From assembly GCA_029006735.1 (NCBI GenBank), contig JAQXGN010000035.1, positions 1 to 61,945 of the forward strand: a DNA stretch of 61,945 bases. The letters are read 5' to 3'. A program made the translations under genes and the position numbers. The notes under the pieces were generated by a model that saw only the letters and a list, made by a program, of their open reading frames with translations, was not told the DNA's origin and did not search any database. This DNA is from Caryophanales bacterium (lineage in GTDB: Bacteria > Bacillota_I > Bacilli_A > RFN20 > CAG-449). Below, one piece after another: positions 35,453 to 44,806 of this stretch; positions within the stretch are counted from its first letter, which is position 1, and each line of letters starts with the position of its first letter.

Positions 35453-36757
35453 TTATAATGCTTTTCTTAAATACATTTCTTCAATCTCATATTTTCCATT
35501 TATATATCGGCCATAATCTTTGTAATTTGATTCAGGATCTGATAAATATATCGTTCTTTCTTCATCTTTTTTTATTACTGCAGCATATTCTTGATCAATT
35601 AGTTTTTCTTGATACAAAGATAAATCTCCCTTCAAAGTTAAATAGAGGTTCATATAAGTCAAATCAACTAATTTTTTCTTAGATACAATACTTGAAATAG
35701 TAAATGTTTCATTATTATATCCTTCCTTATAATCATAATACAAAGAACGATTTATTACCTGATTGTCATGTATAAATGAATAAAAATTTGTATTATTATT
35801 TACACCAAATGTTCTAATTTGAGATACGTTGCATGCTCCACTAGAAGACACTATACCAACAGGAAAAACTTTATTGGTTTTATCATAGATAATGATATTA
35901 TTTTCATCAACAAATGAATCACTCATAAAGATAATTTCTCCTGTTTCTGCATAAAAATACCCTTTTGTTAGATTTGCATTAATAAAATCTTGATATACTT
36001 CTTGTAAATAATAACTATTGAATAAAGAGTTTAAATCTAGGTAATTTGCTTCTAAGGATAAATCATCAACTAAAGAAACTACTTCTTGATCAACATTTAA
36101 TGTTGCATAATATTTGTCATCTTCTTTATCTAATTTTAATTTCAAATTATTTTCTTTTTTACAAGCTTGTTTAATTAACTCTAAATCCGCTTTATTTTTA
36201 TTGTCTAATAAAGGATCAATATTCTTATTTAAACTATAATTTAATGTAAAATTTGTTTTCCAAAAACTATTTATTAACCCAGAATATAAAGAATAAGTTT
36301 CATTTAAATTCGTTTTATCTAAAGCATCAGATAAGATATTATATAATCTTTCTTCGATTTCAATTTTTTCATTAATATGATTGTTTATATAGGAAATCCC
36401 TTTTGTTTTATAATTATAATCCGGTGTTGAATCAATAAGTGAATAAACCTTTTTTGCTTTTTGAATAAATAAATCCCTTACTAGTTTATTAGTATTTTTG
36501 ACTTGTGCTTTATCCCCATCAACATAATACATTAATCGAATATCATTATTATATCCAATATAATCATTATCATTATATAATGATAAATCAAAATTTACCC
36601 AACCAGAATTCTCTAATCCTTTAGTTGAGCAAGAATAAACGCCAAAGCCAATCGCACCAATTGCAATTATAAAAGAAACGACAAAAATAACTATACGTAA
36701 AGGTATATGTTTATCACTAATATTTAGTTTAATGTCTTCGTTTTTTTTCTTTTTCAT
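35453..36757 (-). CDS. Membrane-anchored degenerate ApbE-like protein
   Basis: 434 residues: basic start, one membrane helix (about 20-42), then an outer domain. Its order of segments resembles ApbE (FAD:protein FMN transferase): YINNHINEKIEIEERLYNIL followed by YSLYSGLINSFW (where ApbE has FDxTxGPLxxLW), YLDLNSLFNSYYLQEVYQDF (where ApbE has DLGGIAKGYAVD), and FYSFIHDNQV. The usual Mg/FAD residues are missing, so it is probably not an active flavin transferase. No clear lipobox or ribosome binding site. Assignment is by eye and tentative. Confidence 0.5.
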   Translation of the reverse strand: MKKKKNEDIKLNISDKHIPLRIVIFVVSFIIAIGAIGFGVYSCSTKGLENSGWVNFDLSLYNDNDYIGYNNDIRLMYYVDGDKAQVKNTNKLVRDLFIQKAKKVYSLIDSTPDYNYKTKGISYINNHINEKIEIEERLYNILSDALDKTNLNETYSLYSGLINSFWKTNFTLNYSLNKNIDPLLDNKNKADLELIKQACKKENNLKLKLDKEDDKYYATLNVDQEVVSLVDDLSLEANYLDLNSLFNSYYLQEVYQDFINANLTKGYFYAETGEIIFMSDSFVDENNIIIYDKTNKVFPVGIVSSSGACNVSQIRTFGVNNNTNFYSFIHDNQVINRSLYYDYKEGYNNETFTISSIVSKKKLVDLTYMNLYLTLKGDLSLYQEKLIDQEYAAVIKKDEERTIYLSDPESNYKDYGRYINGKYEIEEMYLRKAL

Positions 36758-36809: not shown

Positions 36810-37757
36810 TTAGCTATTTCTTTCTTTAATATATTTTTCAATTTCACTTTTACTACCAAAAACAAAATGTTCATTACCAATATTAACTAATTCTGGTTCT
36901 TCACAAGAATAATCATGAATTGATGGATCATAGACGAATAATGTTTTATTTTTTTCAATCAAAGGATCTGGAACAGGGATTGCCGAAATCAATGATTTCG
37001 TATATGGATGTAAAGGATGTAAGAATAATTCTTCTGATGTTGCAACTTCAACAATTCGGCCTTTATGAATAACTGCGATTCGATCCGAAATAAAGCGAAC
37101 AATTGATAAATCGTGTGCAATAAACAAGTAAGTAATTCCTTTCTCTACTTGGAATTTTTTTAATAAATTTAATACTTGTGCACGAATAGAAACATCTAAT
37201 GCGGAAATAGGTTCATCTGCAATAATGAGTTCTGGTTCCATAACAATTGCTCTTGCTAATCCAACACGTTGACGTTGTCCACCAGAAAATTCATGTGGAT
37301 AACGAGTTAAGTGTTCAGGAAGCAAACCTACTTCTTTAATAACTTTTTCAATTTTCTCAATACGTTCTTTTTCATTTTTATATAAATGGAAATTATATAA
37401 ACCTTCAGAAATAATATATTCAATAGTTGCTCTTTCATTTAATGATGCTGCAGGATCTTGGAATACCATTTGTATGTGACGAATAACATTTCTTTCTTCT
37501 TTTTCAGATATTTTTCCTGATATTCTATTCCCATGGAAAAGAATCTCTCCTTTAGCACAAGGATTAATACGCATAATCGCACGTCCTATTGTAGTTTTTC
37601 CCGAACCCGATTCTCCAACAATAGAAAATGTTTCTCCTTTATATATATCAAACGATGCATTTGTTACTGCTCTAAAAGCGTTTTTCCCTCTTCCAAAGAC
37701 TATATCAACATTCTTGACAGATAGAAGGACTTCTTTTTCAACTTTATTATTTTCCAT
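36810..37757 (-). CDS. oppF: Oligopeptide ABC transporter ATPase OppF
   Basis: 315 aa from ATG 37757, AGGAGG 8 nt upstream. Walker [16 protein letters not shown]-loop [15 protein letters not shown], signature [15 protein letters not shown], Walker [19 protein letters not shown], and the Opp-type C-terminus [19 protein letters not shown]. No large insertion, unlike its partner OppD. Last gene of oppBCDF; overlaps nothing and is 10 nt after oppD. Confidence 0.95.
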
Positions 37758-37767
37758 AGTAATCCTC

Positions 37768-39519
37768 CTAATTCTTTTGATTATAAACACTATTTAATAG
37801 TGTTTCATGTAAGTTTTGAATGTTCTTTGGTTTTTCTACTTTTGGTGCTCGTGGATCACATAACCATGTTTTTGCAAAGTGAGTTTCACTTATTTTAAAC
37901 ATTGGAGGTTCTTTGACTAAATCAACTTTCATACAATATGGATTACGTGGAGCAAAAGCATCACCAACAATTTTATTGTATAAAGAAGGTGGAGTTCCCT
38001 CAATAGAATAAAGTTTTTCACCAATAACTGATAGTTGTGGTAATGAAGAAAGTAATGCCCAAGTATAAGGATGTTTTGGATCATAGAATATTTCTTCAAC
38101 TAATCCATATTCAATTACTTGACCTGCATATAAAACTGCAACTCTTTCTGCAACATTCGCAACAACACCTAAGTCGTGAGTAATATATACTGTAGTAAAC
38201 TTATATTCGTTTTGTAACTTCTTAATCAATTTTAATATTTGTGCTTGAATAGTAACATCGAGTGCAGTTGTTGGTTCATCACAAATTAAAATCTTTGGAC
38301 GACATGATAACGCAATCGCGATAACAATTCTTTGTCGCATACCGCCTGAATATTGGAAAGGATAATCATCAAATCTTTTTTCAGGGTTAGTAATACCTAC
38401 ATCACGCATAATTTCGATTGCCTTTTCTTTTGCAACTCCCAAAGAAACATGTTGATGTTTAATAATAACGTTAGTAATTTGTTTACCAATTGTAATAATT
38501 GGGTTTAAAGATGTCATTGGATCTTGGAATACTGTTGCAATTCTTGTGCCACGAATCTTTTGCCAATCACGTGGATTATCAACTTTTGCTAAATTAATAA
38601 TTGCTTTGCCATGTAAAGAACCATCTTCTAATGTTTCTAAGTATTCTACATGAAAACAACAAGTATTAAAAATCTCATGTACATTATCTTTATTTGATAA
38701 ATCAACGCCTCTAATCATTGATTTTTTGAATTGTCTTAATATCTTAAAAGCATATGTGAATTGTTGAGAAAAAGAATATCTGCTTGTAGATAATAATATT
38801 TCTTTTGCAAAGATTTCATTTCTTGTAATGCAAGAATTATTTACATCTTTTTTATATGCTTCTTTTAATTCTGCTTTTAAAGATTTTAATGTTGATGAAT
38901 AGTATTTTTGGAATTCAACATCTTTTTTATATGCGGCTTTTTTATTTTTTGCTAATACAATTATAGACTTATCTAATGTTTTAATTTCCTTTTTTAAAAT
39001 AGCAATCTCTTTTTTAAGATTAACAATTATTTCTTTATCTTTTGATTTATCATAAAGCATTATTTCATTTTGTTTTTCGACAATTTGATTATTCTTTACT
39101 TGAATCTCTTTTAAAATAGGTTCTTTTTCTTCTTCTTGAAGATTAATCTTAAAAAGCCTTTCCTTTTTTAAATCACTAATTTTTTGATAAAGTGTAGCTC
39201 CATTTTCAAAATGAGAATACTTATTCAATTGTTTATGAATAAATAATAGAAATTTGTTATTCACTTTTGCATGAGTATCAGATAATTCATCATCATTTAA
39301 GAAAATATCCCCTGCAGAAATGAAACCATTAGAATCATTCATACCAGAAAATGTTTTTGTTAAAACTGACTTACCTGATCCAGATTCACCAACGATTGCG
39401 ATAGTTTCTCCATCATATATATCTAAGTCGACACCTCTAATCGCGGTTAAGAATCTTCCTCTAACTTTAAATTTTAATTCTACACCTCTTAGAGATAATA
39501 ATGTTTTTCTATTTTCCAT
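37768..39519 (-). CDS. oppD: Oligopeptide ABC transporter ATPase OppD with a ~235-residue insertion
   Basis: Walker [13 protein letters not shown] (residues 44-55), Q-loop [11 protein letters not shown] (near 330), signature [15 protein letters not shown], Walker [19 protein letters not shown], and the OppD/DppD C-terminal cysteine domain ([19 protein letters not shown]). Between Walker A and the Q-loop lie about 285 residues where 55-60 are normal: residues 81-315 are inserted, lysine/glutamate-rich and predicted coiled coil at about 120-200. All catalytic motifs are intact. Total 583 aa against about 330-360 usual. Confidence 0.93.
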
Positions 39520-39533
39520 ACTCTTATTACCTC

Positions 39534-40511
39534 CTATGACATATGTGTTCTTGGATCTGAAGCATCACCAACATTTTGACCAACAACGTATAAAACAACT
39601 GAAATTATCGCAGAAACAATAACTGCTGGCCAGAATCTCCATGGAGATGACATCCATACTTTTTGTCCATCATTAATCATACGACCAAGAGAAGGAATAT
39701 TCGCAGATAAACCAACGTTAATATATGATAAGAATACTTCATAAGAAATATATGATGGTAATTCAGATGCAAGTAATGTAACAATAACTGAAATCATAAA
39801 TGGAAGAATATTTTTAAAGACAATTGTAAAAATATTTGTTCCTAAGCATCTTGAAGCTAAATTATATTCTCTATCACGAATGATGATAACTTGCGTACGA
39901 ATAAAATATGCAATTCCGAGCCAACCAGTGATTGATAAAGCTAAAACAAAGCTCCAAAAACCTGTACCAATAATATATGCTAAAACTGTAATTAATAAAA
40001 TATAAGGGATATTACCAATGATGTTATAAATTTGATTCATAATAGTATCAAATGTTTTTGATAATCCCCAAACTGCACCGAGAATAACACCAATTGTCAT
40101 ATTAATAATTGTACAAATTGAAGATAATGCAAGTGATGTTCTTGAACCAGTCCATAAATAATCAAAAACAGATCCACCACCACCATCAGTACCGAATATC
40201 CACGATAATTTAAATCCAAACATTTTAATTGCGTTAATTGGACTTAAATTAAATGAATCTAAGTTAGATACATTTGGATTGTGTTCTGGTCCACCTGGAG
40301 AAATCATTGGATAGAATATTGACATAACAATAATAACTGCAAGTAAAGCTAAAAATACCCAGTTAGATTTTTTTCTAAAGAATACTCTACCTACTGATTT
40401 CCAATATGAATATCTAGGAGCAGTAATTTTTTCTGAATCAGAAGATGATTGAGGCACTAAAACAAATAAATCATCTAAGCCATCATTCATCATAATGCTT
40501 TGATTTTCCAT
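39534..40511 (-). CDS. oppC: Oligopeptide ABC transporter permease OppC
   Basis: Six-helix permease, 325 aa. N-terminal cytoplasmic tail, first helix FLALLAVIIVMSIFYPMISP, outer loop HNPNVSNLDSFNLSP, then GTDGGGGSVFDYLWTGSRTS and the EAA loop ASRCLGTNIFTIVFKNILPF. Normal length, in contrast to OppB. The ATG overlaps the oppB stop as TAATG. Confidence 0.94.
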   Translation of the reverse strand: MENQSIMMNDGLDDLFVLVPQSSSDSEKITAPRYSYWKSVGRVFFRKKSNWVFLALLAVIIVMSIFYPMISPGGPEHNPNVSNLDSFNLSPINAIKMFGFKLSWIFGTDGGGGSVFDYLWTGSRTSLALSSICTIINMTIGVILGAVWGLSKTFDTIMNQIYNIIGNIPYILLITVLAYIIGTGFWSFVLALSITGWLGIAYFIRTQVIIIRDREYNLASRCLGTNIFTIVFKNILPFMISVIVTLLASELPSYISYEVFLSYINVGLSANIPSLGRMINDGQKVWMSSPWRFWPAVIVSAIISVVLYVVGQNVGDASDPRTHMS

Positions 40512-42490
40512 TATTTTCTACCTCCTGTAAATGAAATTCTAGGATCAACAATAGTCAACATAATATCACCAAGAATTAATGATGTAATTGAAAGAATTGA
40601 ATAAAAGAATGTTAATCCTAAAATAGTACCATTATTGTGTTCTTGAATTGCTGTTGTTAATAATCCACCAGTACCTGGAACACCATAAACACTTTCTGTA
40701 ATAAAAGCGCCACCAAGACAACCAATAATTGCACCTGGAATACCATGAACAATAGGAATCATCGCATTCTTTGCAATGTGTTTTGTAAATATTTCACCAT
40801 CACTTAAGCCTTGAGATTTAGCAAATTTAACATAATCTGAATTTGATTGGTCAATCATATATCTTCTTACCCATCTCATTTCACCTGCAAGAGAAGGTAA
40901 TACTAAGGAAATAACTGGTAAAACATAATATAACCATCCAGTGCCTTCAGCAAAACTTGTTGGGAGATTTAATAATCGTCCAAGTGATCTAAAGATGTAA
41001 ATGTAAGCAAGTGAAGGAACTGCAATCATAAAGATAATATAACCAATACCTAATTTATCTGCTAATCTATCTTTTTTTCGTGCCATTAATATACCTAAAG
41101 GAATACCGACAAAATAAGCAATTATTGTCGCTGCAATACCCATAATAAATGAGTATCCGACTTTAGGCATTTTATTATAATAAGAAATACAATTCATATA
41201 ACGATCGCCAAATAAAGCATATTCTTGTTCATTAATTAATAAAGAAGAATTAAATGATGCAGTATGGAAATTATATGCTGATTCGCTATATTCATCTGTC
41301 CCTAATTGAGTTGGGTATTGTTGTTCCTTAGTAACTAATGCCCCTTGACCTTCATTAGAAAAGATAACATCTGTTACATTTTGTCCTTTAGTAGGACCAG
41401 ATAATGATGTTCCTAAACTAAAATGAATAAAGTTTTGATGAATAAATGGGAATTGATCATCAAAATATAATAAATATTTATGTGTAGTACCGCTTCCGAC
41501 AATCGCAGGCATATGCGAATATTCATCCCAAATTAATTTAATGCCCTTTTCTTTAATAGGAAATTCATCGCCACGAGAAAATACTGTAAAATTATTAACA
41601 TAGGTGCTTAAAACAGCTGCATCAGATTCATAATGAGGATTCTTATTTTCATCATAATCACAATAGCATATAAAACGATATTCACCTGCCCCTGTAGTAA
41701 TAACTTGATTATTTTCAAAAACTAAAGAAACATTTTTATCTTTATCAATGTAAGCAATATTCCAAAAGAAATAACCATCAGAATCTAAATTATCTTCTGT
41801 AATACTCATATTAATAAAATAAGCCATTTCTGTATCTGTTCTTGGGCTAACAATCTCTTCATTTGAAGATAATTTGAAAGAATTTGCTCCCCAATATTGA
41901 TTGAAATTTTCCCATTCATTGATGTCGCTAACTAAATAGTATCCTTTGCCTGGTACAGCACCATTTTCTTCAACCATTTTATCAACATCATTTACTGTTT
42001 CAAAAGAAAACATGTTTTTAAAGAATTTACCAATACGAATAAATGGATTGCTATCTTTATAAGCATATAGATATGGTTGGCAACCATTTTTAATATCTCC
42101 ACGTCTATCATAATCAGCTACTAATCTTTTAACTGTATATCCTTTTGACTCGCAATATGATGAAAACTTTGCAATATATGGATTATTTTCATCATCTTCT
42201 TGATCATTAGGAATAAATAAAGCATCAGATAATTCCCTATCAGTTAAATCATCGCCATATTCACTAACAACAAAATCAGAAAAAGTTATTAAATCTATGT
42301 AATCGTATTTTTCATATTGACTATCTTTGTAGTACTCTAAGTCATTTTCACGTAATTTGGAAATATTTTGATCTCCATTAAAAATGACATCTCTTTTTGT
42401 AAAAGTAAATAGTAATAAAATCATTACAAAAACGATGCAAACAAGAGAAAAGATTGAAAATAATATTCTCTTCAATAGATATTTTCTCAT
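40511..42490 (-). CDS. oppB: Oligopeptide ABC transporter permease OppB with giant outer insertion
   Basis: 659 aa from ATG 42490 (AGGAGG 7 nt upstream), twice the usual 305-330. First helix RILFSIFSLVCIVFVMILLL, then about 400 residues outside the membrane before helix 2 (SFIMGIAATIIAYFVGIPLG). The canonical pre-helix-2 block is recognisable late in this loop (FIHFSLGTSLSGPTKGQNVT), so roughly 300 residues are inserted before it and 60 after it. The rest is normal, with EAA loop FAKSQGLSDGEIFTKHIAKN and C-terminal GDIMLTIVDPRISF. Confidence 0.93.
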   Translation of the reverse strand: MRKYLLKRILFSIFSLVCIVFVMILLLFTFTKRDVIFNGDQNISKLRENDLEYYKDSQYEKYDYIDLITFSDFVVSEYGDDLTDRELSDALFIPNDQEDDENNPYIAKFSSYCESKGYTVKRLVADYDRRGDIKNGCQPYLYAYKDSNPFIRIGKFFKNMFSFETVNDVDKMVEENGAVPGKGYYLVSDINEWENFNQYWGANSFKLSSNEEIVSPRTDTEMAYFINMSITEDNLDSDGYFFWNIAYIDKDKNVSLVFENNQVITTGAGEYRFICYCDYDENKNPHYESDAAVLSTYVNNFTVFSRGDEFPIKEKGIKLIWDEYSHMPAIVGSGTTHKYLLYFDDQFPFIHQNFIHFSLGTSLSGPTKGQNVTDVIFSNEGQGALVTKEQQYPTQLGTDEYSESAYNFHTASFNSSLLINEQEYALFGDRYMNCISYYNKMPKVGYSFIMGIAATIIAYFVGIPLGILMARKKDRLADKLGIGYIIFMIAVPSLAYIYIFRSLGRLLNLPTSFAEGTGWLYYVLPVISLVLPSLAGEMRWVRRYMIDQSNSDYVKFAKSQGLSDGEIFTKHIAKNAMIPIVHGIPGAIIGCLGGAFITESVYGVPGTGGLLTTAIQEHNNGTILGLTFFYSILSITSLILGDIMLTIVDPRISFTGGRK

Positions 42491-42512
42491 ACTTATCCTC
42501 CTTTTTATCACT

Positions 42513-42594: not shown

Positions 42595-42621
42595 AAAAAT
42601 GGGAGAATAAATTCTCCCATT
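42595..42621 (-). terminator. Terminator between oppA and oppB
   Basis: Minus strand AATGGGAGAA - 4-nt loop - TTCTCCCATT (10 bp, perfect) followed by TTTCATTATTT, 20 nt past the oppA stop. With the promoter at 42513-42545 it would let oppA be expressed at a different level from oppBCDF. Confidence 0.85.
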
Positions 42622-42640: not shown

Positions 42641-44806
42641 TTAATATAATCCACAAACTTTGGTCATATTTCCTTCACCATTTGATAAGAATGTGTCTAG
42701 ATATGAAATTGGATCACCAAAGTCAGGACCCCAACCTGAGCCATAATATGTATCATAGTTGACATCTTTTCCTTGTTCAGCATAATATGAAGCAGATAAA
42801 TATGCATTTTGATCAGAAGTTTGTAAAACATTTACTTTTACATATGGTTTTAATGCTTCTTCAATGCTATTTTTATAAATATTACCTTGGTTGATATTTT
42901 CAGTTTCAGTTGCTAATACGATTGTATCAATATAAATTGGCTTGTCTGCTGTAATACCAAGTTCTTGAGCAGCTTTTGCAATATACTTTTTAGCTAAGTC
43001 TACATTGTACCAACCATCGATAGCATCAGCAACCTTAATTTCTCCACCATAATATTCATCAATAAAGAATTGTACTAATTCACCATATTCAGTTTTTGCT
43101 GGGAAAGTCTTAGAAATATTATTTTTTGAATCAGTATACTTAACTTCTTTTTCTAAGGATAAGAAGTTTGGAGAAGTATACATATTTCTTAAATTAGCTG
43201 TAGCTAATTCTTTACCTTTAACCGCACCATTCCATGTAGTTCTATCAAATGCATAGTTCAATGCTTTTCTAAAGTTTCTATTTACTAAAGCATTTCTTGT
43301 TGCTTCTTTTTGTTCTGCAGTTTTTGTTGAATTTAATTCTTTTGGATAACCTGAAACAGAATATGCTTGTCTATTTAAATTAATCGCAGATAAAAATGTT
43401 GTTGCAGCAGTTGAAGAAATGAATGCATTTTTTTCAAAATATCCATCTTTTTTAGCGTCATTAATGATTGTATCTGTTAAAGTAACACTAATATATTTAT
43501 GATTGATAACATCAGAATAGTAATCTTTTGCACTTGAGTTATTATCATAAACATAAACGATAGAATCAATCTTTCTATTTGCTTTATCATAATAATGTTC
43601 ATTAGCTTTTAATGATATTTTGTTATTATCTGTAATTTCATCAAAATAAAAAGCAGAGTTATAAAGAATAGATTGTGGGTTACTTGAAATACCATATTTA
43701 TAATTAGCAGTATTATTTTTAGCAGTATTATATTCTGTCTTTCCTAAAGCACCACCCATTGAACGATAGAATGTTTCATTTAATGGTAAGAATGTAGAAT
43801 AAGTCAACATTGTCATGAAATATGGAACTTCTTTTTCTAATGTGATTTGTAATTCATACTCACCATTAGCTTTCATACCAACTTTACCGAAATCTGTAGT
43901 TTTTCCTGCCATATATTCTCTTGCATTTTTAACAACGCCAGATACTAATTGACCTAAACCTGATTCAGAACCTGCGTCTAACATATGTCTAAATCCAGTA
44001 ACAAAGTCTTGTGCAGTTACCTTTCCATAAATTGTTCCATCTGCTTTAACCCAATTAACATCATCTCTTAATTGGAATGTATATACTAATTTGTCATTAG
44101 ATATTGTATGACTTTTTGCAATAGCATATTGTTGATTACCTAAGTTATCATATTTCATTAATCCTTCTAATCCATTAACAATATAAACGCTATCTGAACT
44201 CTTTGAAGTTGCTAAAATATCTAAACTTTGTGGAGCCGCAGAATAAACACTCTTATATTCACGATTTAAAGTATGTCCTTGGCTAAGTAAATATTCAGAA
44301 GGATCATATTTTGTACCATTTTTTAATGCATCGTTCCACATTTTTTCCATATGATCTCTTTCTGCTTTAGTAACTAATGCATCTTTAATTAAAACCATAT
44401 TTTCAACTCTATCAGAATCTAAGCCCCATTGAACGTATGGAGTTGATCTATATGCTGAGTGAGTTAAAGCATAAGAGCCACCAGAAGTTGATGTTGGCAT
44501 GAAAATATTTGAATTTAATAATTCTGCCTCTGCTCTAGCATAACTTAAATATCTTTTTTCATTATCAGTGATATCTCTTGCTTCATCAATCATACCCCAA
44601 TAAGTATCTAAAATATCATCATAAATAGTATCATCATCTGTCATATCTACAGCTGGTGCATCTTCAATATCAATTTCAATTGGATTATCAGATGGCTTAT
44701 TATTTGAAGGATTGTTTGATGTTGTAACATCTCCTCCATTACCTCCACATCCAACTAATGCGAAAATTGATAAAATTGAAAGTAAACATATTTTTTTATT
44801 TTTCAT
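42641..44806 (-). CDS. oppA: Oligopeptide-binding lipoprotein OppA, apparently circularly permuted
   Basis: 721-residue solute-binding protein (SBP_bac_5). Signal peptide with lipobox LVGC (Cys20), so lipid-anchored outside the membrane, then a Ser/Asn/Pro linker. Residues 61-140 (IYDDILDTYWGMIDEARDIT, RAEAELLNSNIFMPTSTSGG) look like the usual C-terminal end of the family (DxLIxxA...R...AExIL...PL). The usual N-terminal part starts at about 187 (YSAAPQSLDILATSKSSDSV) and the protein ends right after GWGPDFGDPISYLDTFLSNG. GGAGG ribosome site. Confidence 0.92.
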   Translation of the reverse strand: MKNKKICLLSILSIFALVGCGGNGGDVTTSNNPSNNKPSDNPIEIDIEDAPAVDMTDDDTIYDDILDTYWGMIDEARDITDNEKRYLSYARAEAELLNSNIFMPTSTSGGSYALTHSAYRSTPYVQWGLDSDRVENMVLIKDALVTKAERDHMEKMWNDALKNGTKYDPSEYLLSQGHTLNREYKSVYSAAPQSLDILATSKSSDSVYIVNGLEGLMKYDNLGNQQYAIAKSHTISNDKLVYTFQLRDDVNWVKADGTIYGKVTAQDFVTGFRHMLDAGSESGLGQLVSGVVKNAREYMAGKTTDFGKVGMKANGEYELQITLEKEVPYFMTMLTYSTFLPLNETFYRSMGGALGKTEYNTAKNNTANYKYGISSNPQSILYNSAFYFDEITDNNKISLKANEHYYDKANRKIDSIVYVYDNNSSAKDYYSDVINHKYISVTLTDTIINDAKKDGYFEKNAFISSTAATTFLSAINLNRQAYSVSGYPKELNSTKTAEQKEATRNALVNRNFRKALNYAFDRTTWNGAVKGKELATANLRNMYTSPNFLSLEKEVKYTDSKNNISKTFPAKTEYGELVQFFIDEYYGGEIKVADAIDGWYNVDLAKKYIAKAAQELGITADKPIYIDTIVLATETENINQGNIYKNSIEEALKPYVKVNVLQTSDQNAYLSASYYAEQGKDVNYDTYYGSGWGPDFGDPISYLDTFLSNGEGNMTKVCGLY

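Follow-up and report, generated by a model that had tools for sequence, protein, structure and literature searches.

The closest described systems are the pneumococcal proteins AmiA and AliA-D, which belong to cluster C (SBP_bac_5) of the binding proteins (PMC11192437). In AliD, lobe 1 is made up of domain I (residues 29-63, 191-296, and 583-617) and domain II (residues 64-190), lobe 2 corresponds to domain III (residues 297-582), and the C-terminal helix alpha19 covers residues 622-652; in AliB, residues W500 and D503 bind the N-terminus of the peptide (PMC11192437). Mycoplasma mycoides OppA (NF043077) is a distant relative of canonical order, with the C-terminal segment at positions 784-886 of a profile of 896 positions. 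A natural permutation has been described for TpMglB-2 (Tp0684), a glucose-binding lipoprotein of Treponema pallidum that led to the proposal of a 'cluster Bc'; TpMglB-2-like proteins occur in treponemes and in Gram-positive gut bacteria (PMC4990184).

The stretch of DNA analyzed here (the window, 61,945 nucleotides) carries on its minus strand an oppA/amiA-like gene (42641..44806) for a circularly permuted peptide-binding lipoprotein of 721 amino acids, recognized from its open reading frame and from matches to PDB chains. The protein resembles AmiA and AliA-D along the whole chain, including a counterpart of alpha19 and the W/D pair, and is likewise a lipoprotein from an Ami/Opp-type operon with an AmiC-like OppB, but differs from them in the permuted order of its segments, in the predicted location of its termini and anchor in lobe 2, and in an extra insert in oppD. 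With TpMglB-2 it shares a natural permutation, a place as binding lipoprotein of an ABC importer, and, by mapping, both termini in one lobe, whereas TpMglB-2 has the sugar-binding fold of cluster B, comprises approximately 390 residues, is cut at another site, and falls outside cluster C. Foldseek and sequence matches of the window protein were cluster C peptide/nickel-binding proteins, rather than proteins with the cluster B fold.

Segment order of the window protein

In this arrangement, the C-terminal segment (the ends of domains III and I, and alpha19) comes first, preceded only by the signal peptide and a tether predicted to be disordered; a short linker connects the former C-terminus with the former N-terminus, and the last residues of the chain fall in a loop of lobe 2. 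The lipoprotein signal peptide (residues 1-20; 44747..44806, minus strand as for all features below) ends in a lipobox-like LVGC, of which the cysteine C20 is the last residue and is nearly invariant in alignment A1. It is followed by a low-complexity tether predicted to be disordered (residues 21-56; 44639..44746; pLDDT mostly < 50 up to residue 52). Based on the AlphaFold2 model, the alignment and published domain limits (PMC11192437), residues 57-107 (44486..44638) represent the transposed C-terminal part of domain III (lobe 2), modeled as helices 58-77 and 82-98 and a strand at 102-107. By alignment and sequence, residues 108-143 (44378..44485) are the final portion of domain I (lobe 1), likewise transposed and normally located near the C-terminus, and residues 144-165 (44312..44377), with a modeled helix at 147-163, align to the Ali C-terminal region as the counterpart of helix alpha19. 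The linker between the old termini, delimited by alignment and model (residues 166-184, KYDPSEYLLSQGHTL; 44255..44311), has the consensus YDPAAYLxGKGYT across the family. The initial annotation had placed the canonical start at approximately residue 187, and in the translation YSAAPQSLDIL indeed begins at residue 188, within the part that aligns with the beginning of the canonical chain, comprising domains I and II of lobe 1 (residues 185-466; 43409..44254). The remaining residues 467-721 (42644..43408) align with the first part of domain III (lobe 2) and end in ..MTKVCGLY at the cut loop. Close to this new C-terminus lies the sequence GWGPDFGDP (residues 691-699; 42710..42736), identified by alignment to W500/D503 of AliB, and the stop follows 17 residues past ISYLD.

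Comparison with PDB chains (phmmer) gave two pieces in swapped order for each of four solved relatives. Residues 181-709 of the query correspond to 13-500 of AmiA (i-E 3e-69) and residues 66-158 to 524-619 (0.0099); for AliC the pairs are 183-716 with 13-502 (2e-59) and 61-167 with 515-624 (1.3e-6), for AliB 179-714 with 4-496 and 66-159 with 515-608 (0.001), and for AliD 182-720 with 6-500 and 59-162 with 507-612 (1.3e-4). Taken over all four chains (AmiA/AliB/AliC/AliD), residues 181-720 match chain positions 4-502 and residues 59-167 match 507-624. Since only positions 501-506 of AliD fall between the end of the query (720 = 500) and its start (59 = 507), hardly any of the canonical chain is missing. 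One curated profile, NCBIfam Mycoplasma OppA, was likewise met in swapped order, with residues approximately 65-167 mapping to 784-886 of its 896 positions, the other pieces being 38-157 (N-core), 263-497, and 632-738 (C-core). BLASTP of the canonical-order relative L046 against the window protein (P0001) showed the same swap, pairing 47-568 with 184-720 (2.6e-113) and 591-679 with 69-157 (3e-9). Judged from these alignments, the swapped-order match is far beyond chance, and comprises two homologous segments that are each present once, with the old termini joined by a linker at approximately residues 166-184. The SBP_bac_5 profile (PF00496) scores 122 bits against a cut-off of 32.4 and covers residues 227-712 only; as homology to SBP_bac_5 stands and colinearity fails, the protein is a permuted variant. 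A Pfam match to HrcA at residues 130-225 (E 0.054) was weak and was taken as chance.

The circular permutation that had been proposed for this OppA is thus supported by the segment order seen against four relatives of solved structure and a curated profile, and additionally by the confident packing of residues 57-143 in the AlphaFold2 model and by approximately 100 distinct permuted relatives, which are colinear with it over the whole protein. We conclude that the 721-residue protein is very probably a natural circular permutation of the AmiA/Ali fold, acting as the peptide-binding lipoprotein of an Ami/Opp-type importer.

Permutations usually begin with a duplication, and seen by itself the window might be read as holding a truncated gene; residues 57-143 might be an extra copy of the C-terminal segment, the protein's own C-terminal segment being either kept or lost by frameshift or assembly error. 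We consider this highly improbable. No C-terminal segment was found after the stop in any reading frame, so the protein is not truncated, and what follows is a terminator-like hairpin (GGGAGAA-TTTA-TTCTCCC and a T-run; 42595..42618, from sequence, unscored) in the gap between oppA and oppB, and then oppB. Such hairpins are frequent where more of the binding protein than of the permease is produced. The approximately 100 distinct relatives have the segment as a single copy only, at the front, and their shared order together with the downstream frames rules out a truncated gene or an assembly error. A segment at both ends, as in a duplication intermediate, was present in none of the 181 typed open reading frames, and the new end is fixed, with 79 of 101 permuted proteins stopping exactly five residues past the core profile, most with an end resembling GYMTKxxGLF. 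It is scarcely credible that a separate domain was added at the N-terminus and only resembles the C-terminal segment, with other residues completing the C-lobe: taken alone, AmiA gives a weak match to the segment (i-E 0.0099), but the matches to AliC and AliD reach 1.3e-6 and 1.3e-4, a second permuted group has 45-66% identity between canonical C-ends and permuted N-ends, residues 650-721 align upstream of the C-terminal segment of AmiA/Ali and not with their C-terminus, and the predicted structure is one compact body. The outcome named in the initial annotation as contrary to a permutation, canonical C-terminal elements formed by residues near 650-721, was thus not observed.

Predicted structure and position of the lipid anchor

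AlphaFold2 (62 sequences) predicted one well-packed protein with a pLDDT of 89.9 and a pTM of 0.87, in which residues 57-143 appear in blocks of approximately 87-98 pLDDT and disorder is confined to the signal peptide and tether, up to approximately residue 52. The top Foldseek matches were AmiA (8a42), AliB, AliC, and AliD, each for the sequential part only (AliD: TMt 0.75, rmsd 2.3, 546 columns). Judged from the sequence match, the agreeing secondary structure and the overall confidence of the model, residues 57-143 would probably take the place of the canonical C-terminal segment in the fold. Residues W692 and D695 are by alignment the equivalents of AliB W500 and D503 and are invariant in the 62 sequences and in alignments A1 and A2; the W..D[YF] motif occurs in 98 of 101 permuted and in all 33 canonical proteins.

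The lobes were mapped by sequence on AliD, with residue numbers taken to exceed the chain index by 26, a shift that was checked on AliB W500/D503 (chain 474/477) and assumed for AliD. Mapped in this way, lobe 1 is continuous (approximately residues 108-466) and lobe 2 is split (57-107 and 467-721), the cut site is a loop in lobe 2, and both chain ends lie in lobe 2. The canonical AmiA/Ali chain has lobe 2 as an insertion within lobe 1, and the window protein has the reverse, lobe 1 within lobe 2, so that the lipid anchor would leave from lobe 2. The suggestion that the permutation moves the anchor point from one lobe to the other is therefore consistent with the AliD domain limits (PMC11192437), which put the canonical N-terminus in domain I and the new one in domain III; residue 57, the first after the tether, maps to domain III and not to lobe 1. 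In an AlphaFold model of Ami, a loop of AmiD touches lobe 2 and the second extracellular domain of AmiC touches lobe 1 (PMC11192437). Given the former contact, the exit of the tether would be closer to the OppC side.

The fold, the cleft between the lobes and peptide binding would otherwise be as in AmiA/Ali, with the peptide N-terminus held by W692/D695 and the lobes closing on the peptide, which would then be passed to OppBC while OppDF hydrolyze ATP. The chief physical change would be the side from which the membrane tether exits.

Distribution and origins of the permuted order

The window protein and 16 proteins from other genomes of its order align over their full length in the permuted order. 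This corresponds to a patchy occurrence, in approximately 16 of the 279 genomes of that order, and the relatives are mostly from metagenome-assembled genomes (MAGs). A scan of genome contigs with the single sequence gave no match; a profile scan of GTDB genomes yielded 80 loci that were kept, all 80 permuted, which as loci ranked by likeness to the permuted profile show breadth and not prevalence. The MAGs of these loci are labeled Bacillales, Erysipelotrichaceae, Clostridia, Sphaerochaeta, Spirochaetales, and Treponemataceae, and the permuted loci derive mostly from rumen and gut. The non-redundant typed set comprises 134 proteins, 101 permuted and 33 canonical. Two very divergent permuted paralogues were observed (L033:3371-5326 in G022 and L055:1625-3529 in G042), the latter without the W..D motif. 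Another contig of the window's genome encodes a second SBP_bac_5 protein of approximately 808 amino acids (L188:5889-8315), which by eye has the canonical order.

Trees were built from the core alone and from the core plus the C-terminal segment set in one common order, and their main features coincide. In both, the canonical protein L046 (G273) joins the main permuted family near its base (100/99), and a second permuted group (L056:8707-10905, L057:7888-10002, and L060:3098-5287; of the three genomes, two belong to the same genus as the window) is nested in a canonical clade (100/100 and 98/97). A single clade of all permuted proteins was rejected (AU p 7.8e-70), which together with the nesting of the second group rules out a single origin. 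According to these trees, the permuted order arose at least twice, independently, at the same loop. The loop cut in both groups lies shortly past the GWGPD stretch, at ..GLY or ..LGF. BLASTP of the canonical L059 against the permuted L056 gave two pieces with 47% and 65% identity; as L059 residue 729 matches L056 residue 153 and L059 residue 40 matches L056 residue 164, the old ends are joined with approximately ten residues between them. For the window protein, the probable route is a tandem duplication in frame with fusion of the copies, after which the outer ends were lost.

One protein, L047 (G148; L047:8488-10572), is nested in the main permuted clade and has its C-terminal segment at the C-end. 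Its N-terminus nevertheless retains the alpha19 helix and a permuted-type linker (linker profile 32-72, E 1.6e-14), a match found in none of the other canonical proteins of the typed set. Its operon carries a long OppD of 613 amino acids, and the main permuted group without L047 was rejected as a clade (AU p 0.012). From these sequence comparisons, L047 looks like a second permutation, back to a near-canonical order, that left a scar at the N-terminus. It is known from one MAG, which is 74% complete, and G148 is the only one of the 26 genomes of its genus with a family member.

The operon and the significance of the permutation

Almost every permuted locus of sufficient length retains the order oppA-oppB-oppC-oppD-oppF. 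In the window, the genes were identified by profile matches, with additional evidence from a model for oppB and from comparison for oppD: oppB (40511..42511, minus strand, likely starting at M8 of the listed open reading frame) for an AmiC-like permease with a large extracellular insert, oppC (39534..40511) for the second permease, oppD (37768..39519) for an ATPase with approximately 220 amino acids inserted between the Walker A region and the remaining ATPase domain, and oppF (36810..37790) for the other ATPase. After oppF lies the gene (35453-36757, minus strand) of a 434-residue protein that seems to have a single membrane segment, at its N-terminus, and that matched neither Pfam nor NCBIfam.

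The permease had been described as remodeled, which holds for approximately 140 extra amino acids in this OppB, but not for its large extracellular part, which is homologous to that of canonical AmiC-type permeases and is therefore no new trait of permuted systems. OppB measures approximately 520-550 amino acids in most permuted loci and 654-666 in the window's genus, compared to approximately 490-515 for canonical AmiC-like permeases. The longer extracellular insert of this genus accounts for the approximately 140 amino acids by comparison with relatives of approximately 527. The OppB model is of medium confidence (pLDDT 74.5), with a poor region at approximately residues 180-310 and low confidence in the extra part; the PDB chains found with it belong to other ABC permeases and match mainly through the membrane portion. 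Complete OppD proteins of main-group permuted operons have approximately 580-765 amino acids versus 350-375 in canonical Ami-like systems, because of an insert that is also present in Mycoplasma OppD; the window OppD matches the Mycoplasma OppD profile NF043079 from end to end (680 bits), and the OppD of Mycoplasma mycoides has the same long insert.

Whether the permutation is adaptive is a separate question from its anatomy. There is about an even chance that it is real but neutral and horizontally spread, with fold and docking unchanged and a new anchor site without functional effect. The patchy spread (approximately 16/279 genomes of the order, 1/26 in the genus of G148, and MAGs labeled Clostridia and Spirochaetales), the functioning of the same operon type with canonical relatives, and the apparent reversion of one protein (L047) fit this reading, whereas the use of the same cut loop twice and the fixed new C-terminus hint at constraint or selection, although a permissive surface loop would explain these as well. 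Only tentatively, and as the less probable reading, do we propose that permutation at one loop of lobe 2 is a recurrent, reversible and selected route that shifts the Ami/Opp anchor from lobe 1 to lobe 2 and changes how the peptide is presented to the permease.

To our knowledge, natural circular permutations of binding proteins are rare. No report of a naturally permuted peptide-binding (cluster C) protein was found in the literature within reach of our search, which excluded most subscription papers. The precedent that was found is one sugar-binding family, and the proteins described here would form a large permuted family within the peptide-binding cluster. Profile searches that depend on segment order miss its first 180 residues, and could mislabel such genes as truncated or as fusions. 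Two origins at one loop and a scarred reversion provide a natural experiment on how permutation happens, and the system lets the importance of the tether side for an ABC importer be probed directly. If the adaptive reading were true, this family and TpMglB-2 together would mark permutation as a device in general use among the tethered binding proteins of gut bacteria and spirochaetes.
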